A model generated the notes under the pieces. The model was not told the DNA's origin. It searched no databases and saw only the letters and a list, made by a program, of their open reading frames with translations. A program made the position numbers and the translations under genes. Positions 896-43,060 of a DNA stretch of 64,000 nucleotides are shown here, in pieces. Position 1 is the stretch's first letter; each line of letters begins with the position of its first letter. This DNA comes from a virus. The stretch covers positions 39,613 to 103,612 of the IMG/VR virus record IMGVR_UViG_3300023174_000098; one strand, 5' to 3'.

Positions 896-961
896 AGTGT
901 TTATTCTACCAAATATAATGAGTATTGAAATATTTTTAGTACTCACTATATTAAGAAAAAT

Positions 962-2227: not shown

Positions 2228-2268
2228 CCACTATTGTTTAAACTAATTCTTTCTGGTAAGTTTCCTTG

Positions 2269-3576: not shown

Positions 3577-4133
3577 AAGATATATGCAATAATTTCCCAA
3601 TCAATAATGAAGAATACAATCAGTTGTGCAAAAAATTTGGAAAATTGTGTTACTATGCTGCACATCAATTGAAAAAAAAGAATACAAGAAATAATTACAC
3701 AGATGATATAGATGATATTAATCAAGAACTTCAATTATCAATTATAAGAGCAGGTAGCTACTTTAAAAGACAGACGTATATAGAAAATTGTCTGAAGACT
3801 GCTCGAAAATATTCATCAGGAGATTACATCCTGGGTGCGACTGTTAAGAATTTAGAAGGACTATGGAGCAATAGGACGAGACACGGCGCTAGCCGTCAAA
3901 AATTCGGTGAATATCAAGAATATCTTCTTGAAAAAATAGTTAAAAATATTGTTCCCGAAGAACAGGCTCCCAAAAAAGACGAGTCTCTTAAAATAGATAA
4001 TAAATTTTCCACTTATTGCAAAGCAATTGTTTGGAATGGTCAAAAATCCATGGGTAAGAAAATAACTAAAGAGAAGAGTATTCGAACTGGACTTTGCAGC
4101 TTAAGTGAGTATGATTACTTAGGTTCCTACTAA
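3573..4133 (+). CDS. possible gp55-like late sigma factor
   Basis: A 186-residue protein, about the length of T4 gp55, starting at a GTG that overlaps the stop of the polymerase. The segment DDIDDINQELQLSIIRAGSYF resembles sigma region 2.1-2.2, and KFSTYCKAIVWNGQK resembles the FSTYA-W segment of region 2.3-2.4. The two are about 80 residues further apart than usual, so the assignment is tentative. If correct, it would be the natural candidate to read the TATATA-type promoters found before virion genes in this window. The alternative is an unrelated small helical protein. Confidence 0.4.
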   Translation: MKDICNNFPINNEEYNQLCKKFGKLCYYAAHQLKKKNTRNNYTDDIDDINQELQLSIIRAGSYFKRQTYIENCLKTARKYSSGDYILGATVKNLEGLWSNRTRHGASRQKFGEYQEYLLEKIVKNIVPEEQAPKKDESLKIDNKFSTYCKAIVWNGQKSMGKKITKEKSIRTGLCSLSEYDYLGSY

Positions 4134-4155
4134 TCTATTTTAGATATAAAAATAA

Positions 4156-5745
4156 ATGCAAGAAGATTTAATTGAGTTGACCGAAGAAGAATCCAATCGA
4201 ATGAATCAATTGATTCAAGAGGATTCTGGATCTGTGTCCAAATATGGCTGGGACGATGGCTTCCAATCAAGAATTCTTGGATTACTTTTAACGGATCGCT
4301 TCTTCTTAATTCAAAGTTTGGACAAAATAAAACCAGAATATTTTTCTAAAGATTCCCATGTTCTTATAGCAAGTATTCTTTTTGAATATTTCGATAAGTA
4401 TAAAAATCTGCCGGATAGATTTTATCTCAAACAAGAGATAGCGGATAAGACAAAAGAAAAATCAATAGAAGCCCAGCTTTTATATCAAGCTGAGTATGAA
4501 AATGTTTTTGATTTTTATGTCCCTGGGCTAGAGAATCGTGATGTTTTAACTGATAAAATTACTTATTTTGCCAAGGTTCAATCCGTAAAAATAACTTTCC
4601 ATAAATGTTTGGAGAGAATGACTCGTAATCCCGAGAGCGAAGAAACTTGGGCGTATATCTACGATCAAATGCGTGAGTCAATGATCGTAGATAAAAACTA
4701 TGAAACTGGTTTGGAGTATTTTCTAAATCCCGAAGAAATGTTTCTTAGGATGCAAAAGGTAATGGAGGGATCCGAGACTTTTACTAGTGGCTTTGCAGAG
4801 ATAGATAATTCTCTCACCGGAAATGGTTTGATGGTGGGAAATATTGGGGCCTGGATAGCTTTACCGGGTACTGGTAAATCGTTGGCTATGATCAAAGCTA
4901 GTGTTGAAAATGTAAAGCGTGGTAAAAAAGTTTTATACATTACCATGGAAATGGATGAACTGGGAATCTCCCAGAGATTTACAAGTCAATTCTTTGGCAA
5001 AGACGTCAATAGTTTATCATCTTTTAAAGACGAGATCATTAAAGAGATAGAGATGTTCAAAGAAGATAAACATGATCCCAATATGTTTGTTGTAAAACAG
5101 TTTCCTGGCGGGACATTAGATGTAAACGGGATTAGAGCATATTATTCACAACTCGTAATGAGAGGGTACAAGCCTGATTTGTTGGTTGTGGACTATGTGG
5201 GTGAAATGAAAGATGACCCTAATCTTAAAAAATATGAAAGTGCGTATAGAATTTTGCGTGACTTAAGAGCTTTCGGAATTGAACAAAAACATTGTACTAT
5301 AACATGCATACAGCCCAATAGCACTGCTGCAAAGCTGGATCAATCTCAATATATCGATGAATCAAGTATCGGCACAAGCTTCGATCAATTTAAACCTCTC
5401 GATTGTCTTTGGAGTATAAACCAACAGGTGCTTGAAAAGGAAGCCCAAGTTGGTAGAATATTTGTTATTAAACACAGAAATGGAAAAAGCAGAAATGCTT
5501 TTTATGTTAAATTCGGTTTTAGAGACGCATTAGATGTCGCCACTTTAGATATAGAGCAAATAACCAAAGAAGAATATATAAGAGAAATGAATTTAGTTAA
5601 AGAAAAGAAGAGTGGAGATGTAATGCAGAATAATGACTCTATTACCGGCGACTCCAATGAAAAGAACGTAAAAGGCAAGAAGAGGGGCAGAAGCACAATC
5701 CCATTTGATCCCACGACAGATGTTGTTGGTGATGGAGAAACCTAG
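4156..5745 (+). CDS. dnaB: replicative DNA helicase (DnaB / T4 gp41 type)
   Basis: Hexameric 5'-3' helicase that opens the fork and normally works with a primase. An N-terminal helical domain (about 1-180) is followed by a RecA-like motor. Walker A is ALPGTGKS (235-242), Walker B is LLVVDYVG with Asp346, and the later Gln-rich and Arg segments (CIQPNS, IKHRNGKSRN) fit the sensor and arginine-finger regions. At 529 residues it is slightly longer than T4 gp41. The last 50 residues are a Lys/Arg-rich tail that may be a contact site. It is in the rightward replication operon, with a UvsY-like gene 11 bases downstream. Confidence 0.9.
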   Translation: MQEDLIELTEEESNRMNQLIQEDSGSVSKYGWDDGFQSRILGLLLTDRFFLIQSLDKIKPEYFSKDSHVLIASILFEYFDKYKNLPDRFYLKQEIADKTKEKSIEAQLLYQAEYENVFDFYVPGLENRDVLTDKITYFAKVQSVKITFHKCLERMTRNPESEETWAYIYDQMRESMIVDKNYETGLEYFLNPEEMFLRMQKVMEGSETFTSGFAEIDNSLTGNGLMVGNIGAWIALPGTGKSLAMIKASVENVKRGKKVLYITMEMDELGISQRFTSQFFGKDVNSLSSFKDEIIKEIEMFKEDKHDPNMFVVKQFPGGTLDVNGIRAYYSQLVMRGYKPDLLVVDYVGEMKDDPNLKKYESAYRILRDLRAFGIEQKHCTITCIQPNSTAAKLDQSQYIDESSIGTSFDQFKPLDCLWSINQQVLEKEAQVGRIFVIKHRNGKSRNAFYVKFGFRDALDVATLDIEQITKEEYIREMNLVKEKKSGDVMQNNDSITGDSNEKNVKGKKRGRSTIPFDPTTDVVGDGET

Positions 5746-21871: not shown

Positions 21872-24800
21872 ATGTCAGTAAAAGCTCTTCAAGATTATAC
21901 CTATTACTCTAAATACGCTCGATATAACAAAGAAGAGGGTCGTAGAGAGACATGGGCCGAGGCTGTTGATCGAGTCAAACAGATGCATCTTCGTAGATAT
22001 CCTCAAGTCGCAGAGGATATTGAGTGGGCGTTTGAAATGGTCAAACAGAGAAAAGTACTTGGTTCCCAAAGAGCTTTGCAATTTGGAGGAGAACCATGTG
22101 AGAAGAAGAATGCTCGTATTTTCAACTGTACATCTAGCTTTTGTGATCGCATAAGATTTTTTCAAGAATCTTTTTGGCTATTACTTTGCGGCGCAGGGAC
22201 GGGGTTCAGTGTTCAGAAGCATCATGTGGATAAACTTCCCAACTTCCACAAGCTCGACAGAACTACTCTTGAAACTAAAGTTTTTGCCGTGCCAGACACG
22301 ATTGAGGGTTGGGCCGATGCTCTCGGTATTCTTCTTGCAACATATTTACCTCATTCTGAATTTTCAGATTGGAAAGGCTTTAAGGTCAATTTTGATTATA
22401 GCTTAATCAGAGCAGAAGGAACAACTCTTGCTTCCGGTGTAGGTAAGGCCCCAGGACCAGAGCCTCTTAAGAGAAGTTTAGAGATAATTAGAAAATTATT
22501 AGATCGTTGCTTAGACAACAAGCAGAAAAAGCTAAAATCAATAGATGCTTACGATATAATAATGCACGCAAGTGATGCTGTATTATCTGGTGGAGTTAGA
22601 CGCTCGGCTACTATTGCTTTGTTCAGTCACGATGACGAAGAAATGGCCACAGCCAAAACAGGCAATTGGTTTATCGATAATCCCCAAAGAGCTAGATCAA
22701 ATAATTCTGCTGTTTTAATTAGGGACGAGGTTTCAAAAGAAGACTTTTTGAAACTTATGGAATCAATTAAGCAGTTTGGTGAACCGGGTTTCTATTGGAG
22801 TGACAGCACGGAGCAAGTTCCAAACCCATGCTTCACAATAGATACAAGAATTCTAACGGAAAGTGGCTGGATGTCTTTCTCCTCCATTCTGGGAGAAGAG
22901 GTAAAAATTCTTCAAGATAATAGGGTGTTAGGAAGAATTGAAAATAATGAAGAATTTTGGGATATTAATTTGGATTTGCCTAACGAAGCAACATCTAATT
23001 TAGCAACCAACATTCGTAGAACTGGTCGTAATAGAGATGTTTACGAGTTAGAACTTAGTTGTGGACGAAAAGTCAAAGCTACTGGAAACCATCATTTTGC
23101 CACAGTTAACGGCATGGTTAAGTTGGAGGATCTTAGAGTAGACGATGAGGTATTAGTTCCACTTCCAGAATTATATGAGTCCAAGAAAGATTCAAGAGAC
23201 TTTAATTTTGGTTATTTAGTTGGAATGGTTTTTGGCGATGGATGCTTTACTGATGGCGCAGCCAGAATTGAAATGTGGGGCGAAGATTCTCCCGCATTAG
23301 CAGCAAAGATTGAGAACATCGTATCAGAAGAAATCAAAGCCAACATCGATAGTTTAAACTTAAATGTAAATTCTAATACCAATCCCAAGTTTAGTATCAA
23401 TGAAGGCAAAATTTATGGAGGTAAACCAAAATTTACTCTTTCAAGTACATTGCTTGGTCAAATATTTAAATTAGAGGGCATTTCTGCAAACAAAGACAAT
23501 ATTGATTTTATCCACTCTAAAAACAAAGAGTTTAAATCTGGATTTGTTTCTGCAATGTTTTATTGCGATGGACACACAGAATATTCCGATGAGGTAAAAA
23601 CAGTTAGCCTGAGATTGACTTCTGTTAATAAGAAGATCCTTTCAGATATTCAACTTATTCTTCAGGAGCTCGGTGTTTTTAGCAAGATTTTTCTCTCTAG
23701 AAAAGCTGGCTCAGCTATGCTCCCAGATAGTAACAGAAACTATAGGTCTTATAATACAAAAGAAAGTTACAGACTTATAGTTGGAGGTTTGTTGAATTGT
23801 AAAAATAGTTTGAGTTTCTTGGACATACACACCAAAGATGTCACAAGGATAAATTATGCTCTTGAAAAATCACAGACACCAAGGCATCCAAACTATTCTT
23901 CCAAAGTTAAGTCTATAACTTACATTGGTAAACAAGATGTCTTCTGTCTAACAGAAAATAATCGGAGAACTTTGATTGCCGAAGGAATGACTGCTCGTAG
24001 ATGCGTGGAAATTGGCATGTACCCAGTTGATATAGAAACAGGAGAATCTGGCTGGCAGTGTTGCAATCTAACCGAAATAAATGGCAAAAAGATTAAATGT
24101 AAAGAAGATTTTGCCATTGCTGCAAGGGCTGCTTCTATTATCGGAACCTTACAAGCAGGGTATACAAGTTTTCCTTATCTGGGTAAAACCACTGAGAAGA
24201 TTGTGGAACGTGAAGCTTTGTTAGGCGTTAGTATTACTGGCATGATGGACAACCCAGATGTAATATTCGATCCTGAAGTTCAAAAGGAAATGGCCAAACT
24301 GGTTTTGGATACCAATGAATGGATGGCTAAAAAGATTGGTATAAATCCATGTGCAAGGTCCACCTGCATCAAACCTGCAGGAACCACTAGCTGCTTATTG
24401 GGGACAAGCAGCGGAATTCATCCTCATCATGCAAAGAGATACTTCAGAAGAACTCAGGCAAATCAAATGGAGCCCGTTCTTCAATATTTCAAGAAGTTTA
24501 ATCCACATGCTGTTGACAAGAGTGTTTGGAGTGCAAACAAAAAAGACGAAGTTGTTACTTTCTGTGTTGAAGTACCAACTGCAGCAAAAACCAAGAATGA
24601 TTTGAGTGCCCAAGACCTTCTAGAGTATGTGAAAACTACTCAACAAAATTGGGTGGCTTATGGTAAGCGTAAAAGTGCTTGCACACAACCTTGGTTAAGT
24701 CATAATGTTAGCAATACAATTAATGTTCGTCCCGATGAGTGGGAAATTGTAGGAGATTTCATCTACAAGAACAGAAAGTATTTTGCTGGAGTTAGTTTGC

Positions 24801-25249
24801 TTCCTGCAAGTGGAGATTTAGACTATCCTCAGGCTCCTTTTTGCAATGTCTTGAATGCAAAAGAGATATTACAAGAATACGGTGAAGGCTGCTTGCTTGC
24901 AAGCGGATTAATAGTTGATGGTTTACATGCTTATGGAGATCTTTGGGAGGCATGCAACTACGCAGTTGGTTTATATGCTTTAGATAAGCCAACTCAGCCT
25001 GATGAAGAAAAATCCTGGGAGTTAAAAAATGATTGGGTTAGAAGAGTCCGACAATTTGCAATGAGATATTGTGATGGCAATATTAAAAAATGCACATACA
25101 TGTTAAAACATGTAAATAATTGGAAAATCTGGTTAGATTTAACCAAGGAATATAAGGAAGTAGACTACACCCAATTTTTAGAAGATAAAGACTATACTAA
25201 ACCAATGGACACAATTGCGTGTGCAGGTGGTAAATGTGAATTAAATTAA
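21872..25249 (+). CDS. nrdJ: class II (B12-dependent) ribonucleotide reductase with intein
   Basis: Reduces ribonucleotides to deoxyribonucleotides using adenosylcobalamin. Without the 391-residue intein the protein would be 734 residues, the length of monomeric triphosphate-type class II enzymes. The N-terminal pattern (YYSKYARY, FNCTSSFCDRI... GAGTGFSV) fits that group. Cys in RIFNC and the QCCNLTEI segment form the active-site pair, the radical Cys is the first extein residue after the intein (711), and the C-terminal CAGGKC is the regenerating pair. Strong AAGGAG ribosome site. The intein sits in the active-site NP/C loop, so unspliced protein should be inactive. Confidence 0.93.
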   Translation: MSVKALQDYTYYSKYARYNKEEGRRETWAEAVDRVKQMHLRRYPQVAEDIEWAFEMVKQRKVLGSQRALQFGGEPCEKKNARIFNCTSSFCDRIRFFQESFWLLLCGAGTGFSVQKHHVDKLPNFHKLDRTTLETKVFAVPDTIEGWADALGILLATYLPHSEFSDWKGFKVNFDYSLIRAEGTTLASGVGKAPGPEPLKRSLEIIRKLLDRCLDNKQKKLKSIDAYDIIMHASDAVLSGGVRRSATIALFSHDDEEMATAKTGNWFIDNPQRARSNNSAVLIRDEVSKEDFLKLMESIKQFGEPGFYWSDSTEQVPNPCFTIDTRILTESGWMSFSSILGEEVKILQDNRVLGRIENNEEFWDINLDLPNEATSNLATNIRRTGRNRDVYELELSCGRKVKATGNHHFATVNGMVKLEDLRVDDEVLVPLPELYESKKDSRDFNFGYLVGMVFGDGCFTDGAARIEMWGEDSPALAAKIENIVSEEIKANIDSLNLNVNSNTNPKFSINEGKIYGGKPKFTLSSTLLGQIFKLEGISANKDNIDFIHSKNKEFKSGFVSAMFYCDGHTEYSDEVKTVSLRLTSVNKKILSDIQLILQELGVFSKIFLSRKAGSAMLPDSNRNYRSYNTKESYRLIVGGLLNCKNSLSFLDIHTKDVTRINYALEKSQTPRHPNYSSKVKSITYIGKQDVFCLTENNRRTLIAEGMTARRCVEIGMYPVDIETGESGWQCCNLTEINGKKIKCKEDFAIAARAASIIGTLQAGYTSFPYLGKTTEKIVEREALLGVSITGMMDNPDVIFDPEVQKEMAKLVLDTNEWMAKKIGINPCARSTCIKPAGTTSCLLGTSSGIHPHHAKRYFRRTQANQMEPVLQYFKKFNPHAVDKSVWSANKKDEVVTFCVEVPTAAKTKNDLSAQDLLEYVKTTQQNWVAYGKRKSACTQPWLSHNVSNTINVRPDEWEIVGDFIYKNRKYFAGVSLLPASGDLDYPQAPFCNVLNAKEILQEYGEGCLLASGLIVDGLHAYGDLWEACNYAVGLYALDKPTQPDEEKSWELKNDWVRRVRQFAMRYCDGNIKKCTYMLKHVNNWKIWLDLTKEYKEVDYTQFLEDKDYTKPMDTIACAGGKCELN
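22829..24001 (+). other. intein with LAGLIDADG endonuclease in nrdJ
   Basis: Residues 320-710 of the reductase. It starts Cys-Phe-Thr-Ile-Asp-Thr-Arg-Ile-Leu-Thr, a standard intein block A, with the block B His in TGNHHFA. Two LAGLIDADG motifs (LVGMVFGDG and FVSAMFYCDG) give a full homing endonuclease. Block F (DVFCLTENN) and a block G-like GMTARR lead to the +1 Cys. The expected terminal His-Asn is replaced by Arg-Arg, so the normal C-terminal cleavage by Asn cyclisation would not work. Boundaries come from the interruption of the NP-CVEIGM reductase motif. Confidence 0.85.
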
Positions 25250-25258
25250 TTTAAAAAA

Positions 25259-26890
25259 ATGGCCAAATATATTATTGTTTGTGGTGGAGTAATTTCTGGA
25301 ACTGGCAAGGGTGTGGCGGCTGCTTCTATAGCCTTGTTGTTAAAACTTCGTGGATATAAGGTCAACTATATAAAGTTTGAGCCTTATTTATCCTCGGATG
25401 CCGGTGTGTTATCTCCTATTGAACATGGAGAATGTTTTCTTTGTGATGACGGTAAAGAAACAGATCTAGACCTTGGTACCGTTGAGCGAATTGCTGGCAT
25501 CAATATGTCCAGCCAAAATATATGCACTTCTGGAACTCTTTACAAAGAATTGATAGTCGGCCAGGAAAAGGGTGAAAATTTGGGGAGAACTCTCCAAATT
25601 ATGCCTCATGTGACAGATAAGATTCAAGATCGTCTTTTAAGTCTAGGTAAAACTTCAGAGGTAGTTATATGTGAGATAGGCGGAACTGTAGGCGATATGG
25701 AAAGTGCTGTATTCTACGAAGCAGTTCGTCAATTTGAACAAAAAAATGATGTCATGGTGGCAATGGTTGCGCCCATACTCTGGGTTCCAACCATAAAAGA
25801 ATTTAAGACTAAACCTCTACAGAATGCGGTCAAGCAACTATATCAATATGGTATAAATCCCGAATTGCTTCTGTGCAGAGTAGACAGAGAAATACCTGTT
25901 AAATTATTAGATAAAGTATCTGATATGACAGGTGTTGATAGGGGTGCTATATTCGAAGCAAGAGACGTTGATTCTGTATATCAAGTCCCAATAGAGTTCT
26001 ATAACAGGCATATTGATGACTACTGTGTTGATATGCTCAGGCTCAAGAGAAGCTCCTGCAGAATACATAAGTATAAAGAACTAATTGAGAAACCAATAAA
26101 TGAAGAAATAACTATTGGGATTTGTGGAAAGTATTCAAATCATGATGAGGCTTATCTTTCTCTAAAGGAAGCTCTTACCCACACCTCAATGTTTTATGGG
26201 GTTAAGATAAATATAAAGTGGATCCGTGCACAAGATATTGATAATAAAAATGTCAAGGAGACTCTTAAAAATATTGATGGGCTCATAGTTCCTGGGGGGT
26301 TTGATAAAAATGGGGTAGAAGGAAAGATTCAGTGCATAAAGTATGTTAGAGAAAATAAGATCCCATTCCTTGGTATATGTCTGGGATTGCAATGCGCTGT
26401 AATTGAATTTGCTAAAAATGTTTGCAGTATACCGGGGGCTAATAGCCAAGAATTCGACAAAGATGCAGTTGACCCAGTTGTTCATTATTTAGTAGGACAA
26501 AAAGATATAGCAGTTAAAAGTGCTAGTATGAGATTAGGATCTTATAATTGCGAATTAATTAAAGGCACGATCGCTCACAATGTTTATTCTGGGTCGCCAA
26601 ATAGATGGGACAATAAAAACACAATAAGTGAAAGGCACAGACATAGGCTCGAGGTTAATCCTAAATACTTAGAGATTTTTGCTAAGAAGGGCTTAAATCT
26701 ATCTGGATTTAACCCGGAAACCAAATTAGTTGAAATAATGGAGCTGGATCAACAAAAGCATCCGTTTTTTGTTGGAACACAAGCACATCCAGAATTCAAG
26801 AGCAGATTGTCAGACGCCGCTCCTCTTTTCAAAGGTTTTGTTTCGGCGGCCTTAGAAAACAAAAAAAAATTAACAAAAAAAAGTAAATAA
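25259..26890 (+). CDS. pyrG: CTP synthase
   Basis: Makes CTP from UTP, ATP and glutamine. The synthetase domain shows GGVISGTGKGVAAA (about 9-22), YIKFEPYLSSDAG, HGECFLCDDG and IGGTVGDMES. The glutaminase domain has the nucleophile in LGICLGLQC and the His-Glu pair in QAHPEF. At 543 residues it is full length and looks active, though several positions conserved in bacterial enzymes differ (for example DLDLGTVERI), so it is not a recent host copy. It follows the reductase gene by nine bases. Since that reductase type uses triphosphates, CTP made here can go directly to dCTP. Confidence 0.95.
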   Translation: MAKYIIVCGGVISGTGKGVAAASIALLLKLRGYKVNYIKFEPYLSSDAGVLSPIEHGECFLCDDGKETDLDLGTVERIAGINMSSQNICTSGTLYKELIVGQEKGENLGRTLQIMPHVTDKIQDRLLSLGKTSEVVICEIGGTVGDMESAVFYEAVRQFEQKNDVMVAMVAPILWVPTIKEFKTKPLQNAVKQLYQYGINPELLLCRVDREIPVKLLDKVSDMTGVDRGAIFEARDVDSVYQVPIEFYNRHIDDYCVDMLRLKRSSCRIHKYKELIEKPINEEITIGICGKYSNHDEAYLSLKEALTHTSMFYGVKINIKWIRAQDIDNKNVKETLKNIDGLIVPGGFDKNGVEGKIQCIKYVRENKIPFLGICLGLQCAVIEFAKNVCSIPGANSQEFDKDAVDPVVHYLVGQKDIAVKSASMRLGSYNCELIKGTIAHNVYSGSPNRWDNKNTISERHRHRLEVNPKYLEIFAKKGLNLSGFNPETKLVEIMELDQQKHPFFVGTQAHPEFKSRLSDAAPLFKGFVSAALENKKKLTKKSK

Positions 26891-26894
26891 CTTT

Positions 26895-27293
26895 ATGGAA
26901 TTTAAAGACTTTTTACTTAGTGAAAATAAATCAGATTTTGCCGTTAAGGTTGGAGACATACTGTCTTCGCTACAAGATATCTACTCAGATATAGATATAA
27001 TGAGTAAGAAAGATGTTTTTGTATATGTTATCAATATAGTTAATAAGATAAGACCATTACTTAAGAAAGATATAGGTCTAAACTATCTTAAAATTTTACA
27101 AAAAATAGCTACTGCATTAATGAAAGACTACGACGAAAAGAATGATCCAAAAGATAATATTTATAGCTCTATAAAAGAGCTAGAATCATTGCTTTCTTCT
27201 GTTGGTCTTCCTATTAATAAAATAAATATCACAAAAACACCCCAACAGATTTCTGAACCCGCTGGACAGACTGGTGAAAACCCTTCTGCTTGA
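26895..27293 (+). CDS. helical protein with capsid-targeting-like N-terminus
   Basis: 132 residues starting MEFKDFLLSENKSD, with a possible processing site after LSE10. The rest is helical (two or three amphipathic helices, residues 15-110) with a Pro/Gln-rich tail. It is embedded between CTP synthase and thymidylate synthase and its stop overlaps the thyA start, so a head-type gene shares the nucleotide operon. Function unknown. The targeting peptide is inferred from similarity to the other genes of this set. Confidence 0.6.
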   Translation: MEFKDFLLSENKSDFAVKVGDILSSLQDIYSDIDIMSKKDVFVYVINIVNKIRPLLKKDIGLNYLKILQKIATALMKDYDEKNDPKDNIYSSIKELESLLSSVGLPINKINITKTPQQISEPAGQTGENPSA

Positions 27294-28150
27294 TGCTTAG
27301 CATGGAAAATTACATTAGCTTACTTAGCAATGTTTTGTCGTCTGGCACTGATAGACAAGATAGGACGGGCATAGGTAGTCGTTTTATTAATGGTGCCACC
27401 CTTAAGTGGAATCTATCCGATGGTTTCCCAATGGTCACGACAAGGAAGGTTTCTTTTAGGATTGCCTTTGAAGAAACCATGTTTTTTTTACGTGGAGAAA
27501 CAGATACAAAGAAACTTGAAGATAAAAACATTAATATTTGGCGGGGAAACACAACCAGAGAATTTTTAGATAATCGTGGATTATCACATCTTCCTGAAGG
27601 TTCTATTGGGACTGGCTATTCTCATTCTTGGAGAAATTTTGGTGGAACTTTGGGCAACAGTGATGGTGTTGATCAAATAAGAGACTTAATTAATAACCTT
27701 AAGACTGATCCCAATGGAAGAAGGCATATTGTTACTGCTTGGAATCCAAGTCAAAATTCAGGCACACCTCTTCCTCCTTGCCACATAATGCATATGTATT
27801 CTGTTAGTGAAAATAAACTCAATAGTTGTTTCGTAATGAGAAGCAATGATTTGTATCTAGGACTTCCAACCAATATAATGGGATACGCTTTTTTAAACCT
27901 TGCTTTTAGTAAATTATTAAATTTACAACCGGGAGAACTTACCTACTTTGGTTGGGATGCACATTTATACAATAATCAATTAGAGGCGGTTCAACAGCAG
28001 ATAACTAGAGTTCCAAGACAATTGCCATCTCTTGTGTTTAAAAAAGATTTTTCTACTCTTGAAGAGTTGTTAGAGTTAAATTACGAGGATTTAGAGTTAA
28101 TTAATTATGACCCTCATCCTCCCCTTCCAAAGGTTGAAATGGCCGTATGA
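27293..28150 (+). CDS. thyA: thymidylate synthase
   Basis: Methylates dUMP to dTMP with methylene-tetrahydrofolate. Visible motifs: DRTGIGSRF (phosphate-binding Arg near 25), FFLRGETD, the catalytic Cys in LPPCHIMH (about 162) and RSNDLYLGLPTNI followed by AHLYNNQ. The 285 residues are normal for ThyA. I chose the ATG overlapping the previous stop (TGATG); an in-frame ATG nine bases on is possible. It is followed by DHFR with a four-base overlap, which regenerates the folate it consumes. Confidence 0.96.
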   Translation: MLSMENYISLLSNVLSSGTDRQDRTGIGSRFINGATLKWNLSDGFPMVTTRKVSFRIAFEETMFFLRGETDTKKLEDKNINIWRGNTTREFLDNRGLSHLPEGSIGTGYSHSWRNFGGTLGNSDGVDQIRDLINNLKTDPNGRRHIVTAWNPSQNSGTPLPPCHIMHMYSVSENKLNSCFVMRSNDLYLGLPTNIMGYAFLNLAFSKLLNLQPGELTYFGWDAHLYNNQLEAVQQQITRVPRQLPSLVFKKDFSTLEELLELNYEDLELINYDPHPPLPKVEMAV

Positions 28151-28629
28151 TCAATTTAATTGCAGCCTATGACCCTAAAAGAGTCATGGGTAAACAAAAT
28201 TCTTTGCCATGGAAAATTAAAGAAGACATGGCGTTCTTTAAGCAGATTACTACAAACAATATTGTAGTAATGGGGAGAAATACTTATGAGAGCATAGGCA
28301 AGCCTTTACCCAAGAGACTAAACATAGTTTTAACTAAAAATAAATTAGACGCAAATGTTTACTGTTTTCCTAATTTTGAAGAATCTATTAATTTCTGTAA
28401 TAAAATAAATTTAAATAAAAAAATATTTGTTATTGGTGGATGTAAATTATATAAATATGTCTTAGATAAGAATTTAGTGGATAAGATGTATATTTCTAAG
28501 ATAAGTAAAGAATATGACGGAGATGTTATGTTCCCAGATTTTCAAGAAGATAATTGGGATAAGAAATTATTTCAAAAATTCGATGAATTTGAATTATGGG
28601 TGTATTCTAAAAAACTAAACAATTTGTAA
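28147..28629 (+). CDS. folA: dihydrofolate reductase
   Basis: Reduces dihydrofolate, the by-product of ThyA, to tetrahydrofolate using NADPH. Characteristic segments: NLIAAYDPKRVMGKQNSLPWKIKEDMAFFK (1-30 region with the catalytic acidic residue), VVMGRNTYESIGKPLPKR and FVIGGCKLYKYVL. At 160 residues it is a standard single-domain enzyme. It overlaps thyA by four bases, so the two are translated together. The nicotinamide-binding Gly-Gly and the Trp-Lys near the active site are intact. Confidence 0.95.
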   Translation: MINLIAAYDPKRVMGKQNSLPWKIKEDMAFFKQITTNNIVVMGRNTYESIGKPLPKRLNIVLTKNKLDANVYCFPNFEESINFCNKINLNKKIFVIGGCKLYKYVLDKNLVDKMYISKISKEYDGDVMFPDFQEDNWDKKLFQKFDEFELWVYSKKLNNL

Positions 28630-33051: not shown

Positions 33052-35115
33052 CTAATTAGAATGAGATATTGCCCTGGATAATTCAGTTAGGATAACGTCC
33101 TCAGATTCTGTTAATATTTTATTACTATTTAATGTATTTGAGGTATTAGTTGGTGTCTTTGTTAATGTTGGTGTCTTTGTTAATGTTGGTGTCTTTGTTA
33201 GTGTCTTTGTTAATGTTGGCGTCTTTGTTAGTGTCTTTGTTAATGTTGGCGTCTTTGTTGGTGTCTTTGTTAAAGTGTGAGTCGGAGTCCCAGTCACTGT
33301 AGGTGTGCATGTTGCCGTTCTGGTTATTGTGGGTGTCTTTGTTTTTGTTGGAGTATTAGTTAAAGTTTTGGTTAGTGTTAGTGTTGGAGTATTTGAATTT
33401 GTGGCCGTTTGAGTATTGGTTAATGTAGGAGTTTTTGTTAATGTAGGAGTTTTTGTTAATGTAGGAGCTGGAGTTTTGGTTATTGTGGGTGTGCATGTTG
33501 ACGTTCTGGTTATTGTCGGAGTCTTTGTTTTTGTTGGAGTATTAGTTAAAGTTTTGGTTATAGTTCTAGTTAGCGTTGGAGTTCTAGTTAGCGTTGGAGT
33601 TCTAGTTAGCGTTGGAGTATTTGAATTTGTAGCTGTTTGAGTATTGGTTAATGTAGGAGTTCTTGTTAAAGTTGGTGTTTTTGTTAGTGTAGGAGTTTTT
33701 GTTAGTGTAGGAGTTTGCGTGGGTGTTCGAGTATATGTCTTTGTTAGAGTAGGTGTTCTGGTATTTGTTGGAGTAACACTTTTTGTTGGAGTTGGAGTTC
33801 TTGTTACACAAACACTAGAACCATCGCCGCTACTGCTGGCACAAATTGGATTTGGAACGATGTTGCTTTGAGTGGAATATTCCCAATAACCAGCAACACT
33901 AGATTTGTAGAATGCGGCCTTATACCACTCATCTTCAGATGGAATATAATACATAGAATTCGGATTTTTATCTATTTCGAAAAATATTTCTGATCCGTTT
34001 AAATTATATGCCCCCGACTCAGTCTCTGTTGTCGATGGATGTGATACGCTATTATGAAGCCAATTAGCCATCCTAGCAGCACTCAACCAGCTAACAAAAT
34101 TAACTGGTTTGTTGCCCATTTTTGGTTTTACTAAATATGTGTATCTTCCTGATACACCAGATATTTGTATTCCTCCTGCTGGATCTTCGGACATTGAATA
34201 GTTGTATAAATTATATGGATCCGATTTTGCTACAATATTAAGAAACGCACAATATTCAGTGTTTGTCACAGGGTATTTTTGTATCAAGTAGTTGTATCCC
34301 ACGCTTCCGAAGGAATACTCGCTATCTGGTAAGTTTCCAGGATTGCCTACTCTAATAAATTTACTATAATTTAAAGGATTTTCTATTGAAGATAATCTAA
34401 AGCCTATTGTTTTATCTTTGAAATTAAATTCGAATCTGTTTCCCTTCCATAAATCATTAGAAGAAAAAGATCCTCCACGTATAATTTTTTTACTATTACT
34501 TCCATCTGTTAATTCCCATACATTTCCATTCATGTCATAGGTGCCATATGCACTTGGTCCTCCATTAGTGCCAACAGAAGTTGGCCCTCCATCATTTCCC
34601 ATTTCTCCCCAATAAGCATTTTTTTTATAATTTGCACTGTTGCCCGCAACTGATGTTGCAGTAGGAGTTGATGTTTTTGTTGGTGTTAACGTTTTTGTTT
34701 TTGTGGGTGTAGCAGTCAGGGTGGGAGTTGTTGTATTAGTAGATGTTAATGTTGGTGTTAATGTTGGTGTTTTTGTAAGTGTTGGTGTTGAGGTTGGAGC
34801 TATATATTCCAAAACCAGGGTTCCTATCCATCCCGCATCACAGGCGGATACTGCGTTCCACGAATCATTTTCCCACACATAATGATTATGGTTATAGCAC
34901 TGACCTGAAGCATTATTTTTATTAAATTTGTCATACTGGGAGGAGCTCTGAGGTACATACCCAGACCCAGACTCTATGGATTTTATGTAAGCCAGGTTTC
35001 TCTGATCCCAAGCTAATGTGTATGGTGCACCATATCTCAATCCAATGCTTATGGCATCATTTATTATTGTAATTGTTGGGTCTTTTGCGTATTTTTCTAG
35101 TTCTTCGTTTGGCAT
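33052..35115 (-). CDS. adhesin: permuted FGE-type domain with Thr-Pro linkers
   Basis: 687 residues. An N-terminal domain (1-105) is followed by a TPTLT linker. A formylglycine-generating-enzyme (SUMF1) fold comes next in swapped order: the normally C-terminal part first ([18 protein letters not shown]... RGGSFSS... IGFRLSS, about 178-250), then the N-terminal part ([24 protein letters not shown]... [17 protein letters not shown]... [15 protein letters not shown], about 270-420). A Thr-Pro repeat of about 220 residues with PTLTKT units follows, then a short C-terminal helix. Probably a fibre or surface adhesin. A TATATA box lies 6-11 bases before the ATG and no ribosome site is seen. Confidence 0.75.
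33124..33800 (-). repeat. Thr-Pro-linker coding repeat
   Basis: An imperfect array of 6-, 18- and 24-base units encoding TPTLTK-type peptides in the adhesin. Larger blocks are duplicated: the segment with [14 protein letters not shown] occurs twice. Confidence 0.9.
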
Positions 35116-36551: not shown

Positions 36552-37940
36552 ATGAGCGATAAAATAGTCGAAATTGTTGGATTTGAACATTTACACCTTC
36601 ACACCGATTATAGTCTCCTTGATGGTTTTCAAACTGTAGAAGAGGCTGGAAATCGTGCCATTGAAATCAATCAAAAGTTTCTAACGGTATCTGACCACGG
36701 TATGCTGGGAGCAGTCCCAAGACAAATCAAAATATGTGATAAAATATGTGATAAATACAAAGATAAAAATAAGTTGAGTCCCATATTCGCCAGCGAACTA
36801 TATATCAATTCACTACAACCAGAGAGTTCTGGTTTGGAGGATATGCAAAATTTCACCAAAGACCTATCCCCAGATGAAATCGATACTCTAAAAGCCAGTC
36901 CTCACCTATTAGCAATAGCTTACAGCCTAGAGGGTTATAAGAATCTTGTAAGATTAACTAGCTGGGGTTGGACCAAGGGCTTCTACAGAAAACCTCGGGT
37001 TAATTATGAACAGCTCAAGAAGCACAAAGAAGGCTTAATATTTACAAGCTGCTGCTACAATAGCGAAATTGGAAGAGCCTTTGATAAAGGTGGAGAAGAA
37101 TCTGGCTTTCAAATGCTTGAAAAGCATCTAGAAATGTTTGGTAAAGATCATTTCTATTTGGAGCTCATGCTTTTAGATTTTAAAAAGCAGTTTGCATATG
37201 ATGCTTTTATTGTAAAATGTCATGAAAAATATAAGATTCCTTTGATAGTATCTTGCGATGTTCATTATTGTAATAAAGAAGATAGTCACTATCAACGCTT
37301 GATGTTGATGATCCAAACTAATAGAACATTAAAGCAGATAGAAGAAGCAAAACAAAAAGATAGTATGGCAGACTTCTTCGAGCTTCAAGATGAAAATCTA
37401 TGGATGAAAAGTGAAGAAGAGCTTAATGAGAAATGGCTAAAGGACTATAGTGAAATTATTCCTTATGAATTATTCCAAGAAGCTAAAAAAAATACAGTCA
37501 GAATATGCGAGAAGGCAAAAGGGGTTACATTTGATAGAAGCCTTAAACTTCCTGTAATAGAAGATGGTGATGAAAAATTAAAAGAACTAACCATAAGAGG
37601 TTTCAATGATAGAAACCTCCCTAAAACAAAAGTCTATTTAGACAGATTAAAAGAAGAAATTTCTCTAATCAAAAGAAAAGGTTTCAGTAGCTATTTCCTC
37701 ATTCAGAAGATGATGACAGACGAAGCCAGAAGAATATGCCCTCAATTACTTGGTTGGGGAGATGGAAGTGAAGCCGTTGGTCCCGGCCGTGGAAGCGCTT
37801 GTGGTTCTCTTCTCTGCTATTGCTTGGGCATAACAGACGTGGATCCAATCAAAGAAGATCTTTTATTCTCCAGATTTTTAAGTGAATCTCGAGGAGGAAG
37901 AAGTATGATTTTAGAGTTTAAAGATATCGATCCTATTTAA
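36552..37940 (+). CDS. dnaE: DNA polymerase III alpha, N-terminal part of split gene
   Basis: 462 residues. A PHP domain starts at HLHLHTDYSLLDGF (about 14-27) with further His/Asp motifs (SDHGMLG, SCDVHYC). The palm begins with the glycine-rich VGPGRGSACGSLLCYCLGITDVDPIKEDLLFSRFL (about 409-444). The protein then ends with a short unrelated tail exactly where the catalytic PDIDxD motif should follow. It therefore has the proofreading-like and Gly-loop parts but no catalytic aspartates; those are in the gene at 40433. Both parts are needed for a family C polymerase. Confidence 0.9.
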   Translation: MSDKIVEIVGFEHLHLHTDYSLLDGFQTVEEAGNRAIEINQKFLTVSDHGMLGAVPRQIKICDKICDKYKDKNKLSPIFASELYINSLQPESSGLEDMQNFTKDLSPDEIDTLKASPHLLAIAYSLEGYKNLVRLTSWGWTKGFYRKPRVNYEQLKKHKEGLIFTSCCYNSEIGRAFDKGGEESGFQMLEKHLEMFGKDHFYLELMLLDFKKQFAYDAFIVKCHEKYKIPLIVSCDVHYCNKEDSHYQRLMLMIQTNRTLKQIEEAKQKDSMADFFELQDENLWMKSEEELNEKWLKDYSEIIPYELFQEAKKNTVRICEKAKGVTFDRSLKLPVIEDGDEKLKELTIRGFNDRNLPKTKVYLDRLKEEISLIKRKGFSSYFLIQKMMTDEARRICPQLLGWGDGSEAVGPGRGSACGSLLCYCLGITDVDPIKEDLLFSRFLSESRGGRSMILEFKDIDPI

Positions 37941-37953
37941 TAAAGGTTTTATT

Positions 37954-38067
37954 ATGTTCTATGAACTTGCTGTTGCTTTTGGTGTAGAATATGCCTTGCT
38001 TGTCAACAGTCTACCAAAAGATTTGATCATAACGGTAGAATACAAAAAAAATAACACCCCTGTTTGA
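37954..38067 (+). CDS. small ORF after dnaE-N
   Basis: 37 residues (MFYELAVAFGVEYALLVNS...), 13 bases after the dnaE-N stop, with an AAAGG ribosome site. The stop lies in the loop of the terminator. It may be a true peptide or residue of the gene split. Confidence 0.4.
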   Translation: MFYELAVAFGVEYALLVNSLPKDLIITVEYKKNNTPV

Positions 38068-38090
38068 CCAAGGGTGTTATTTTTATATTT
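38050..38090. terminator. bidirectional terminator at the dnaE break
   Basis: AATAACACCC and GGGTGTTATT form a perfect 10-bp stem with a 12-base loop. T-rich stretches follow on both strands (A-run on the left, TTTTATATTTTT on the right), fitting the convergent genes on either side. Confidence 0.85.
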
Positions 38091-38103
38091 TTATATTGAA
38101 GAT

Positions 38104-39057
38104 TTAGCGATTGTATTTACCAAATTTTCCAAAATAGTCTTCATCTTCATCTGACTCTTCTTCATCTCCGCCATAATCTTCATCTGAGTCTTCATAGCTA
38201 TCTGAATCTTCATCCTCATCTTCTGATTCTTCGTCTTCTGATTCACCTTCCTCAGAATCTTCATAATCTTCCTCTGAATCATCGGACTCTTCTGAATCCG
38301 AATCTTCTGAGTCATCATAATTATCTGAATCTTCGTAATCATCTGAGTCATCTTCTTCTTCGGAGTCTTCTGAGTCATCACTGATATACTCTTCTCCATC
38401 CTCTGAATCTTCCGAATCCTCTGAATCATCACTATATTCTTCATCATCGCCCTCCATCTCGTCAGAAGCATCTTCTGAATCGACTTCATCTTCTGATTCT
38501 GGTTCACCGTCGTATAGTTTTTCGAAACCAATAGGGCCAGCAACACTTTCATAGAGGTTTTTGTCTTTAAGCATTTCAACGAGAACCGCCTCTGATAGTT
38601 TGGATCTCTTTATTTCTCTTACAACGTTCTCAATAAGTTTTGGATTATTTTTCATTGCAGATACTGCAACTGCAAGTAGATCCTGGACACTTTTAATCTT
38701 GCTATAATCTATTTCGACATTTTTTTCTTCATGAATATTTTTTGCAAATTCAGATAAGGACATTCCTTTTGTTTTATGTATCCACTCCGATACCTTTGAT
38801 ACTTGGCTTGTTGGCCCAACTTTTGTTGGTTTGCTTGGTTTTGGAAGATTTGGGCCATCTTCTTTTTCTTTGTGCCATTCTGGCGACTTATTTTGTAGAG
38901 GTTCTGTTTTTGGTTCATAGACTAATTTTTTGTTTCCATGATGTCCAAGAGCATTCTTGTTTTTCTTTGCCTTTATTTTTTTACTGGTCATCTTTGGTGG
39001 ATTTTCTTCCACTTTACCCTTTTCATTTAAATACTCATTAAACTTTTTGAATGCCAT
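38104..39057 (-). CDS. acidic virion-type protein with capsid-targeting N-terminus
   Basis: 317 residues. MAFKKFNEYLNEKG carries the shared targeting pattern with a possible processing site after LNE12. A basic region follows (about 15-70), then a helical middle (VQDLLAVAVSAMKNNPKLIENVVREIKR), and a 120-residue Asp/Glu/Ser tail (from about 190) of SEDSEDSEE type. It resembles the acidic protein at 14487 in architecture but not in sequence. I chose the third codon as start because GGGAG stands six bases before it. It lies on the opposite strand between the two dnaE parts. Confidence 0.65.
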   Translation of the reverse strand: MAFKKFNEYLNEKGKVEENPPKMTSKKIKAKKNKNALGHHGNKKLVYEPKTEPLQNKSPEWHKEKEDGPNLPKPSKPTKVGPTSQVSKVSEWIHKTKGMSLSEFAKNIHEEKNVEIDYSKIKSVQDLLAVAVSAMKNNPKLIENVVREIKRSKLSEAVLVEMLKDKNLYESVAGPIGFEKLYDGEPESEDEVDSEDASDEMEGDDEEYSDDSEDSEDSEDGEEYISDDSEDSEEEDDSDDYEDSDNYDDSEDSDSEESDDSEEDYEDSEEGESEDEESEDEDEDSDSYEDSDEDYGGDEEESDEDEDYFGKFGKYNR

Positions 39058-39059
39058 GA

Positions 39060-39233
39060 TCATCTCCCTTTTCTAAGTTGCATTAAAATCCACATTATGA
39101 TATAAATTAGTGGTCCTATCCCAAAAAATAAAAAAGAAGCAACAAATCCAATACGTATCCAATTTGGATTTATATCTGTTTTGTCACCCAAGTCAGCACA
39201 GACTCCCAGTAGGACTGATTTGTTCTTTTTCAT
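39060..39233 (-). CDS. PspC-domain membrane peptide
   Basis: 57 residues. The pattern GVCADLGDKTDINPNWIRIGFVASFLFFGIGPLIYIIMWILM is that of the PspC domain, with a first amphipathic helix and one membrane segment (about 28-51). In bacteria PspC senses envelope stress and binds PspA. A phage copy could modulate the membrane stress response during infection; that is inference. It overlaps the start of the acidic gene (ATGATCATG), so the two are coupled. Confidence 0.7.
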   Translation of the reverse strand: MKKNKSVLLGVCADLGDKTDINPNWIRIGFVASFLFFGIGPLIYIIMWILMQLRKGR

Positions 39234-39278
39234 ATAATTTATTTATGCACAACTAGTTATATTATTCTTGGAAAAACG

Positions 39279-40373
39279 TCAAAAACACATCTCTTTGTAT
39301 CTAATATGTTTTCTTTCCAAGTAAACGGTTGCGTTATCATACAAGTAGTCACCTGCTTTTTTAGCCTGCCGCCTTCCTCCTATTGAAAAACTATAGTTGT
39401 TTTTGTCATCTTTGTGTCTTTTTTGAAGTTTTGCTTGCTTGCCCAATATTTCTTGACATTTGAGTAAAAACTCTTTTGTCCCACACAGGGCGAAGGCATA
39501 GAAATTATTGTTTTTTTTAAATGATCCATCGCCATCAAAATATCCTCGCATGAAATGATTTTGTAATTCTTTTGGCACAATTGATTCATCTGGAAACTTT
39601 AATATCAATGTCTTTTTTTCAAAAGCGCCTTTAGCCACTAAATTATCGAATAATTGATCTGAACTCATTAGTAGTCGGCAATACTCTATTTCTACTCCTC
39701 CAAAAGACTTGGATTTATATATATTTATTGGATATGTAGAATTAATATGTTTTTTGAATGTTTCTAAATGATTGATATCTTTTGTGCTTAAGGCTATTCC
39801 AAGTTTTTTTTCTGTTTTTGTTTTTTTACTAACGTATCCATCGGCATAAATAAAACCCAACCAATATGCTTTATATTCATTGTCTATTTTGTTAAAAAAA
39901 TCATGATCAACATCATACCTCCTAGAATTTATTTTGTTGCTACGAGTAAGCCCTCTTTTTTTAAGGTTATTTGTCAGCTTGCCAATTCCTATTCCTGTTA
40001 TTTCAATTACCTTTATCGATGACAAACCAGATTTATATAAATTTATTGATTTTTCTAACAAGGGATCGTATTTAACTATTTTCTTTTTTGATATTTTTAA
40101 TCTTTTTATTTCTTGTCTAAGTGTATGTTTTGAAACTTTTGTCAATTTGTTAACTTCATTTAAACTTTTACCATTTTCATAAAGATTTAACGCTTCTTCT
40201 AAACTTTCTTTTGTATAACTTTTACGTGCTGCTTCCTTGGCGCTTCTTGTTAAACCCAATTTTCTAAGTTGGTATTGTAGTCCTTGAAAAGAAGCCCCAG
40301 TCGCCGCTGCCGATTTTTCTATTGTCTTTCCTTCTTTATAGATAATAATTGCTTTTTGTATTGATTCTTTCAT
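39279..40373 (-). CDS. free-standing LAGLIDADG homing endonuclease
   Basis: 364 residues. The N-terminal third has three helix-turn-helix-like repeats (GKTIEKSAAATGASFQGLQYQL; GKSLNEVNKLTKVSKHTLRQEI; GLSSIKVIEITGIGIGKLTNNL). The nuclease core follows, with two LAGLIDADG helices: AYWLGFIYADGYVS (about 185-198) and HFMRGYFDGDGSFKK (about 273-287). Both Asp residues are present, so it should be active. It sits between the two halves of dnaE in reverse orientation, the arrangement expected for an endonuclease that targets one of the flanking coding sequences. Confidence 0.88.
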   Translation of the reverse strand: MKESIQKAIIIYKEGKTIEKSAAATGASFQGLQYQLRKLGLTRSAKEAARKSYTKESLEEALNLYENGKSLNEVNKLTKVSKHTLRQEIKRLKISKKKIVKYDPLLEKSINLYKSGLSSIKVIEITGIGIGKLTNNLKKRGLTRSNKINSRRYDVDHDFFNKIDNEYKAYWLGFIYADGYVSKKTKTEKKLGIALSTKDINHLETFKKHINSTYPINIYKSKSFGGVEIEYCRLLMSSDQLFDNLVAKGAFEKKTLILKFPDESIVPKELQNHFMRGYFDGDGSFKKNNNFYAFALCGTKEFLLKCQEILGKQAKLQKRHKDDKNNYSFSIGGRRQAKKAGDYLYDNATVYLERKHIRYKEMCF

Positions 40374-40432
40374 ATGTGTCCTTGTTTTTATTAAATAATC
40401 TATGTATAATATAGTTTAAATAAAAATATTTT

Positions 40433-43060
40433 ATGAAATCAAATATATTTAAAATTTGTGAAGAAAAATTAAAAGAAAAAGGATTATTTGAGGATAAAAG
40501 ATATCAAAAAAGATTGAGCTGGGAACTCAAAGAAATAGAAGTTCAAGATAAAGAAAATTATTTTTTAGATCTATCAGTAAGAAAAGTAACATATCCTGAA
40601 AATCAAAATAATCTTTTGGTTCCATATCTTTTGGATATAGTTAAAGATTTCGACATAGATCGAGATCCTGAATTTTTCTATGGTGACCTACCAGATTGTG
40701 ATGTAGACTACATTCCTGTAGTGCGTGAATTTTTAAAGAACGAATGGGCTTCCAAAACATTTGGCGAGCAATATGTTTGTAATATTGGTAATTATACAAC
40801 ATATGGTATTAAATCATCATTGATAGATATGGCTAGAGTTCATGATAAAGATAGAGGAGAATTACTTGCTTTAACCACTAAACTTCAAACCAAGGATGAT
40901 GAAGGCAAAGCTTTGACTTGGGAGTCGGCAATGAAAGTTGATCCTGGTCTTAAAAAATATTGTGATGATAATCCTGATGTTGCAAAAGCCGCACAGAAGT
41001 TAATTGATCGAAATAGAGGCATGGGAGTTCACGCCGGTGGACTTATAATCAGTAGCATACCATTAACCGATCTTGTTCCTCTTGTTAAAAGGAAAGATGA
41101 TCCTCAAGCAAGTGCTTGGGTAGAAGGTCTTCACGGTCAAGACCTACAGCCGGTGGGTCTTGTTAAATTCGATTTGTTGGTTATTAGCAATCTTTTACAA
41201 ATAGCTCACTGTTGCAGGCTTGTGCATGAGCGACATGGTGTAGAAAAAATATGTGCTCTTCATGGCAAATCAAATTGGACCGATGTGGACTGCTATAGGA
41301 ATGATGAAAAAGCATTGATAATGGCAGATGAAGGAGATCTTAAATGTATCTTTCAGTTTGATTCAGATGGAATTAGAAATCTTGCTAGATCTGGTGGTGT
41401 TACAAGATTTGAGGATTTGGTCGCATACTCGGCTTTATACAGGCCTGGTCCGTTAAATATGAAGATGCACGAGAGATATATTGAGAGAAAAAGAGGCCGA
41501 GAGGAATATGAGCTTCATCCCATATTAGATTCTATTTTAGAGAAAACTTATGGAGTTATTGTTTACCAAGAACAAGTAATGAAGATTCTCAATGTGGTTG
41601 GTGATATTCCAATGCGAGATGTCGAGACTGTCCGAAAAGCCATAAGTAAGAAAAAAGTAGAACAATTCATAAAATACAAAGAAATATTTATAAAGAATGG
41701 AAGTAAAAACCTTGATCAGACAGAAGAAGAATTAGAAAATTTGTGGAATCTTATAGAATCTTTCGCTGAGTACGGCTTCAATGCTAGTCATGCCACCGCC
41801 TACACCCACGTTAGTTCTCGTCTTCTTTATTTAAAATCACACTATCCACAAGAGTTTTATACTGCTATTTTGATGTGTGAAGACAATACCGATAAAATCA
41901 AAGAGTATAGAAAAGAAATAATAAAGCACAATATAAAGATCAATAAGATTGATGTAAATAAATCTAAAGCAAATTTTAGCCTTGTTGATGATGAGATATA
42001 TTTTGGATTTTCTAATGTAAAAGGTATAGGAATAAATGTTGCTGAGCAGATAGTTGAAAAGCAACCTTATATCAATTTTGAAGATTTTATAGATAGATTC
42101 GGTACAGATTCTAGTGTCTTGAAACCTCTGGTGGCAACCGGTTGTTTCAAGGACTCTGATCCTGTTACGCTTTTTAAGTTTGCCGAGTCTTATAAAGATT
42201 ACATAAAAAAGAAAATTGATAGAAAGAAAAGACATCAGGCCTCTAGCAAAAAGAATAAAGAAGTATTAATGGATTTGATAGAAAAGGCCGAGAATTCCGA
42301 CGAGACTGTCGCTCGTCTCTCTAAAGGTGAAATTAGTCAAATAGATTCTAAAGATCTTAAAAAAGTAAGTAATTGCGAAATATGGAAAGAAAGATATAAG
42401 GGTTTAAAAATAGATGACAAAGATTTGTGGAAAGAAGTTTGCAAGCTAATAAACAAGATGACCAAGGCCACAGAAAAATTTAAGCTTAAAGATAATCAAG
42501 ATAAGCCAAAATTAGAGTCCTTTGACTCATCCCTAATAAGCATAGATAAAAAACTAGAAAAAGAACTTCTTGAATCTCTTCCCGAATGTGAGAAAAGGTA
42601 TTATGGATTTTCTTGGCAATCAAAAATCCAGGCAAGCCCTGATTATAAAGGCGGATATACCTTTGACTCCTTCACAGAGGGTGTTAATGAAATTTTGCCT
42701 GTAGAAGTCGAAATCATGGCCGTTAATAAAAGAAAAGGCAAAAGGGCAGAATATTATCAGGTAAAAGCCGAGGATGAAAATGGCGATGAAGGAATCATTA
42801 ATGTTTGGAAAGATGATTATAATTCTTTTCAAAAAGAGATAGTTGTTGGTAATTTTGTAAGATTGAGATTGAATGCGCCATCGAATGGTTTTAAAACGTA
42901 CACACTCTCTTCAATTGGACCAAGGAATTTTTATAAAAAGAAGCAAGTTGAAAGAGAAGATGACTACAGACTTGTCTTGTTAAGAAAATCTGATGGGATA
43001 TTGGACGAAGTTACCATTGAACAAGAAAAGGAAATAGAAAAATGTCAGACGAACTCGTAA
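40433..43060 (+). CDS. dnaE: DNA polymerase III alpha, C-terminal part of split gene
   Basis: 875 residues. It opens with about 85 residues that echo the region before the catalytic motif (RLSWELKEIEVQDKENYFL), then the catalytic LPDCDVDY (about 86-93), the third Asp in LVKFDLL (about 247), YRPGPLNMK, YQEQVM and YGFNASHATAYTHVSSRLLYLKSHYP. A helix-hairpin-helix (FSNVKGIGINVAEQI) and an OB-type domain (VEIMAVNKRKGKRAEYYQVK) follow near the C-terminus. With the 36552 product it makes a complete family C core. Its ATG has no clear Shine-Dalgarno, and an ATAATATAG stretch lies about 20 bases upstream. Confidence 0.92.
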   Translation: MKSNIFKICEEKLKEKGLFEDKRYQKRLSWELKEIEVQDKENYFLDLSVRKVTYPENQNNLLVPYLLDIVKDFDIDRDPEFFYGDLPDCDVDYIPVVREFLKNEWASKTFGEQYVCNIGNYTTYGIKSSLIDMARVHDKDRGELLALTTKLQTKDDEGKALTWESAMKVDPGLKKYCDDNPDVAKAAQKLIDRNRGMGVHAGGLIISSIPLTDLVPLVKRKDDPQASAWVEGLHGQDLQPVGLVKFDLLVISNLLQIAHCCRLVHERHGVEKICALHGKSNWTDVDCYRNDEKALIMADEGDLKCIFQFDSDGIRNLARSGGVTRFEDLVAYSALYRPGPLNMKMHERYIERKRGREEYELHPILDSILEKTYGVIVYQEQVMKILNVVGDIPMRDVETVRKAISKKKVEQFIKYKEIFIKNGSKNLDQTEEELENLWNLIESFAEYGFNASHATAYTHVSSRLLYLKSHYPQEFYTAILMCEDNTDKIKEYRKEIIKHNIKINKIDVNKSKANFSLVDDEIYFGFSNVKGIGINVAEQIVEKQPYINFEDFIDRFGTDSSVLKPLVATGCFKDSDPVTLFKFAESYKDYIKKKIDRKKRHQASSKKNKEVLMDLIEKAENSDETVARLSKGEISQIDSKDLKKVSNCEIWKERYKGLKIDDKDLWKEVCKLINKMTKATEKFKLKDNQDKPKLESFDSSLISIDKKLEKELLESLPECEKRYYGFSWQSKIQASPDYKGGYTFDSFTEGVNEILPVEVEIMAVNKRKGKRAEYYQVKAEDENGDEGIINVWKDDYNSFQKEIVVGNFVRLRLNAPSNGFKTYTLSSIGPRNFYKKKQVEREDDYRLVLLRKSDGILDEVTIEQEKEIEKCQTNS

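Follow-up and report, generated by a model that had tools for sequence, protein, structure and literature searches.

How an intein that lacks the usual C-terminal residue is removed from its host protein, or whether it is removed at all, is the question raised by a ribonucleotide reductase (RNR) gene in the window, by which we mean the whole 64,000-nucleotide stretch analysed here (positions 39,613 to 103,612 of the IMG/VR virus record IMGVR_UViG_3300023174_000098). A terminal Asn, Gln or Asp has been called omnipresent in class 1 inteins and described as among the last residues that these inteins never lose (PMC7664689); the irreversible step is carried out by its side chain, which is why the residue is kept. 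The intein in the window ends in Ala-Arg-Arg.

The reductase gene and its insert

The reading frame at 21872-25249 (+) was open for 1125 residues. Its two ends, the exteins, matched TIGR02505 (E 4e-64, under the curated cut-off), and the spliced form matched PDB 1l1l (E 6e-26). Based on the match to the RTPR family, the NPC loop and the C-terminal redox cysteines, the predicted activity of the host protein is that of a class II RNR. Profile matches and relatives without the insert indicated that the sequence between the exteins is an in-frame LAGLIDADG intein. It matched Pfam PF14890 (Intein_splicing) at 43-47 bits (46.9 bits; cut-off 35.8), TIGR01445, and LAGLIDADG_3 (PF14528) above its cut-off (match 234-316), and the last of these, together with two motifs, identified a LAGLIDADG homing endonuclease with putative DNA cleavage activity. 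In intein-free viral relatives (L002-L005 among them) NPCVEIG runs unbroken, and the insertion is therefore placed between Pro and the radical cysteine (NP^C). The features of the gene are as follows:

21872..22828 (+): N-extein of the class II (adenosylcobalamin-dependent) ribonucleoside-triphosphate reductase, residues 1-319, ending ...QVPNP (TIGR02505, PDB 1l1l, intein-free relatives L002-L007)
22829..24001 (+): intein of 391 residues with LAGLIDADG homing endonuclease, ending Ala-Arg-Arg (PF14890, PF14528, TIGR01445; 44-55% identity to relatives L018, L019, L098, L099 and L209)
22829..22831 (+): Cys1, the block A nucleophile, codon TGC (invariant in 9/9 RR rows and 89/89 others)
23081..23092 (+): block B, T85-x-x-H88 (invariant in 98/98 rows)
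23213..23242 (+): first LAGLIDADG motif, YLVGMVFGDG (from the translation; glycines and acidic residue conserved across the RR family)
23543..23572 (+): second LAGLIDADG motif, FVSAMFYCDG (from the translation; PF14528 match 234-316)
23945..23968 (+): block F, from Cys373 (F:4) to Arg379-Arg380 (F:13 His to Arg; R380 in 9/9 RR rows and 0/89 others, Lys in L210)
23996..24001 (+): Arg390-Arg391, block G positions 6 and 7, CGT AGA (RR in 13/13 family members, codons differ)
24002..24004 (+): Cys+1, doubling as the radical cysteine in the NPC loop of the RNR (NPCVEIG in intein-free relatives; invariant in the 98-row comparison)
24005..25249 (+): rest of the C-extein (VEIGMYPV...), with the C-terminal redox cysteines CAGGKC and the stop (tblastn and relatives)

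The initial annotation had described an intein with a normal Cys1, block B His and two LAGLIDADG motifs in the active-site loop, and the translation, Pfam and relatives confirmed this description. The ending reported there, Ala-Arg-Arg before Cys+1 in place of His-Asn, proved to be real: the last intein residues, T-A-R-R, are encoded by ACT GCT CGT AGA, with the final AGA at 23999-24001 and Cys+1 at 24002. Joining the exteins in silico gave the 734-residue product named in the initial annotation, which had also described the reductase after the intein as intact. An alternative terminus at a nearby Asn was rejected: the block G Asn-Gly of L018 and L019 is Glu-Gly in the window, and the NPC loop fixes the junction.

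The gene lies in a nucleotide-metabolism run (21872-28629) that follows SbcC/D-like genes and comprises the RNR, a gene at 25259-26890 that we take to be CTP synthase-like (its PHROG is of unknown function), thymidylate synthase and dihydrofolate reductase. Elsewhere in the window, two long ORFs have FGE-sulfatase (formylglycine-generating enzyme-like) domains, at 33052-35115 (-) and 52693-56415 (+). The gene for the DNA polymerase III alpha subunit is in two pieces (window 36552-43060), of which the one at 36552-37940 held PHP and NTPase profile positions 2-98 and the one at 40433-43060 continued from position 100. The intervening DNA has two ORFs on the minus strand, and one of these (39279-40373) matched LAGLIDADG_3. 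Nothing resembling an intein was evident where the gene is broken, and the polymerase may be a two-chain enzyme split by a homing endonuclease gene.

A family of RNR inteins ending in Arg-Arg

Comparison with related reductase inteins, as suggested in the initial annotation, identified 12 other viral contigs with RNR inteins that end in Arg-Arg before Cys+1, at 29-55% intein identity. Searching the viral contigs with a single sequence gave no intein relative, and the alignment-based search of viral contigs identified L018 (53%), L019 (51%) and L020 (30%), all ending in RR before the Cys. A second search added L098, L099, L100 and L101. L204, L205 and L209 came from a DNA motif scan, and L210 and L211, whose host RNR is, on our reading of the sequence, NrdJ/Z-like, from a third pattern. 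The final pattern, in which the block F constraint was loosened, recovered these 12 contigs alone, and the block F motif scan with the terminal two residues left free returned only Arg-Arg inteins. All were at NP^C where that end was present, L204 and L210 being incomplete on the N-terminal side. The N-terminal side of the L210 intein was out of frame with its C-terminal part, reflecting either a contig frameshift or a decayed copy. No isolate phage with an Arg-Arg intein was found, and the one uncultured huge-phage match examined (L212) ended in Ser-Asn; cellular-genome relatives exist, and those read end in Asn or Gln.

In these RR inteins Arg stands in place of both the penultimate His (G:6) and the terminal Asn (G:7). 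In addition, the usual His at F:13 is replaced by Lys in L210 and by Arg in all other members; this second anomaly beside the terminal Arg was absent from the initial annotation. The Arg codons at G:6-G:7 (CGT AGA, CGA AGG, AGA AGG, AGA CGA, CGT CGA and AGA AGA) differ among members, and it is therefore the residue, not the DNA, that is conserved.

To place this ending among RNR inteins in general, terminal residues were extracted with Cys+1 and Glu or Gln at +3 required and G:6 and G:7 left free. The 163 inteins obtained include many near copies and leave out four loci that were skipped, and one or more of the extracted ends (that of L064) looks misplaced. In this set G:7 was Asn in 119, Gln in 31 and Arg in 13, and nothing else was found even though any residue was allowed. 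Only 39 of the 163 ended in His-Asn. The emphasis of the initial annotation on the missing His is thus misplaced: inteins at this site commonly do without a penultimate His, and the true anomaly is the terminal Arg together with the Arg at F:13.

When nine RR rows were compared with 89 others, R380, R390 and R391 were the sharpest differences near the active site, and Cys1, the block B Thr and His, and Cys+1 were the same in both sets. Cys373 (F:4) and Glu376 were invariant in the RR family, and Thr388 was present in 9/9 of its rows and in ~12% elsewhere. Near the active site, the RR rows of this comparison showed no gain of an Asn, Gln, Asp, Cys or His. A Gln-to-Arg evolutionary path appears plausible because there are relatives that end in TRQ or TMQ (L024/L025, L097, L151 and L191, with Arg-Gln or Met-Gln before Cys+1) and because CAR to CGR is one transition; the Arg-Gln and Met-Gln inteins would be possible intermediates.

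In a tree built without the last 13 residues the RR inteins fell into two supported clades, one of six rows with the window and one of three with L020. Forcing them into one clade gave a higher likelihood, and the AU test did not reject it (p 0.69), which leaves room for a single origin without proving one. For the pair L018 and L019, synonymous divergence was 0.42 per site (95% 0.35-0.50) within the intein, 0.69 in the N-extein and 0.72 in the C-extein, the extein values being near saturation, and the shift fell near the intein borders. This drop inside the borders suggests that the intein is younger than its RNR and was transferred by homing after the reductases had diverged. Omega for the same pair was ~0.09 over the intein (splicing part 0.10, endonuclease 0.08) and 0.03 over the C-extein, values that indicate strong purifying selection on the intein and the exteins. 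Such spread and persistence would be unexpected for an insert that blocks a reductase at its catalytic cysteine, and we therefore infer that the intein is functional.

Other inserts were observed in the RNR genes compared. L020 has a second intein (around 2290-3400) a few residues downstream, at EF^C, that ends in Tyr-Gln and is absent from the close relatives L100 and L101, and L205 (ORF 2-4243) has a further intein at a KPSG site that ends in His-Asn. In Pseudaeromonas phage KLEP7 (L013, 1162-1339) a stretch of ~200 non-coding bases breaks up the class II RNR at the codon where the window intein sits. This stretch had no Rfam match and by its exon ends looks like a self-splicing intron; if it is one, an intron and an intein would share one site.

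Proposed cleavage of the C-terminal junction

We consider it probable, from the sequence comparisons above, that the RR inteins are a functional, mobile lineage of phage inteins in which Cys1 and Cys+1 are used in the normal way and the C-terminal bond is broken with Arg in place of Asn or Gln. Steps 1 and 2 would proceed as in class 1 inteins, with an N-S acyl shift at Cys1 and transesterification to Cys+1. The branched intermediate would then be resolved by cleavage after Arg391, replacing Asn or Gln cyclisation, and a final S-N shift would restore the 734-residue reductase. The option of an unusual splicing mechanism, one of those offered in the initial annotation, gained support from the conservation of Arg-Arg in a diverse family, the co-occurring basic residue at F:13 and the strong selection on intein and exteins. 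Nothing points to the helper that had been offered as another option, although one may still take part. Against this reading, C-terminal cleavage was abolished by mutation of the terminal Asn in the inteins studied (PMC4031507), and the conservation of Cys+1 is not independent evidence of splicing, since the reductase needs this residue for its own chemistry.

The chemistry of the cleavage can be proposed only tentatively. The most likely route would be for the Arg391 side chain to attack its own carbonyl, so that a natural intein would splice by cyclisation of a C-terminal Arg to a delta-lactam, with the basic F:13 residue and Arg G:6 as catalysts replacing the His pair; the neighbouring Arg390 and Arg380 could bring down the pKa of Arg391 or have a stabilising effect on the oxyanion. 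An activated Arg forms a six-membered delta-lactam through its side chain as its main side reaction in peptide synthesis (PMC7352207), and inteins that end in Gln make a six-membered glutarimide (PMC8175363). By analogy, the Arg ring would be the same size as that formed by the Gln inteins. Against this route, the documented cases of Arg cyclisation all concern activated Arg and not a peptide bond. The guanidinium group, with a pKa near 13, is a poor nucleophile.

It is also possible, though we would not favor it outright, that the RR inteins splice without Arg as the nucleophile, in which case water or Thr388, Glu376 or Cys373 (F:4) would cleave the Arg-Cys bond after branching and the arginines would serve as electrostatic or oxyanion helpers. 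The conservation of these three residues in the family is consistent with such a role, and the HINT fold can sustain hydrolysis in other proteins and in stalled intermediates (PMC7664689). However, the three Arg positions, and not a newly gained residue near the active site, are where the family changes most sharply, and cleavage by water would leave a strict Arg at G:7 without obvious need.

We regard as very improbable a third reading, that one or both junctions are cleaved without ligation and that the two parts of the reductase form an active enzyme by non-covalent association. The N-terminal cleavage machinery is intact and the C-terminal catalysts are changed, type B intein-like domains without block G cleave but do not splice (PMC4031507), and the split DNA polymerase III gene in the same genome indicates that two-chain enzymes are tolerated at the gene level. 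Nevertheless, the break would interrupt the catalytic NPC loop right at its radical cysteine, the strong conservation of Arg at G:6-G:7 would be unexpected if ligation were dispensable, and none of the RNRs examined is split at the gene level.

The least probable reading is that the intein is splicing-dead, through recent mutation or sequencing error, and the phage without a working copy of its reductase. The step 3 residues are indeed missing, and mutation of the terminal Asn at G:7 normally blocks C-terminal cleavage (PMC4031507). But the same ending occurs with different codons in 12 other contigs, which rules out sequencing error, and the use of both CGN and AGR codons at G:6-G:7 rules out an altered genetic code or a nucleotide-level constraint. 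The blocked splicing with loss of enzyme considered in the initial annotation is disfavoured by the intact exteins, by purifying selection on intein and exteins, and by the apparent horizontal movement of the intein between phages into an active-site codon. A second RNR that might excuse a dead intein was not found in the 103.6-kb record, which is itself incomplete, and another RNR could lie beyond it.

Comparison with known inteins

The Arg-Arg ending is a conserved feature that points to unexplored splicing chemistry. To our knowledge, reviews give only Asn, Gln, Asp (or Glu) for the terminal intein position, and no description of a terminal Arg was found in the open-licence literature searched. 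The initial annotation had allowed that a known family of active inteins ending in Arg-Arg would count against its reading; such a family exists by sequence, with an activity that we infer. In a conserved, mobile family without Asn, Gln or Asp, either Arg cleaves the peptide bond or the HINT fold resolves the branch otherwise. If the delta-lactam reading is true, Arg would join Asn, Gln and Asp as another kind of branch-resolving residue. Either route would extend protein-splicing chemistry and could yield inteins with new pH or ligand control, and annotation pipelines that require a terminal Asn risk discarding RR inteins.

At the corresponding NL^C or NP^C position in named phages, tblastn identified the SPbeta BnrdE inteins and further RNR inteins, and the four of these that were read end in TGN or TGQ before the Cys. 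The SPbeta BnrdE family (Bacillus and Staphylococcus phages, class Ib RNR) resembles the window intein in its position at the radical cysteine (NL^C versus NP^C), its LAGLIDADG endonuclease, its length (384-385 aa; 24-28% identity) and its lack of the penultimate His, a residue often lost in phage inteins (PMC5050341). Unlike the window intein, its members end in Thr-Gly-Asn, have His or Ser at F:13 and reside in a class I RNR. RNR inteins ending in Gln, from Vibrio phage PG07 and viral contigs, share the homologous cysteine site in those read and a non-Asn terminus, but differ in the terminal Gln itself and in F:13, which is mostly His or another non-Arg residue; the Chilo iridescent virus RNR intein is also among the Gln-ending ones (PMC4031507).

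With respect to class, type B bacterial intein-like (BIL) domains are, like the window intein, without the canonical block G catalytic residues, but membership was rejected given the full block G-like segment, the LAGLIDADG endonuclease and the insertion in a conserved enzyme with Cys+1. Class 3 inteins lack Cys1 and have a Trp-Cys-Thr triplet with Thr at G:5. The window intein shares with them a Cys at F:4; however, Cys1 is invariant in the RR family and G:5 is Ala389 in the window and Ser or Met in its relatives, and this class was also rejected. With class 1 inteins it shares Cys1, the block B T-x-x-H and Cys+1, and differs in having Arg391, as the family has Arg in 12/12 contigs, in place of the terminal Asn, Gln or Asp. 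Judged by these motifs, the window intein is a variant and not an ordinary class 1 member, one in which blocks A and B and the +1 position fit and the defining C-terminal residue does not.
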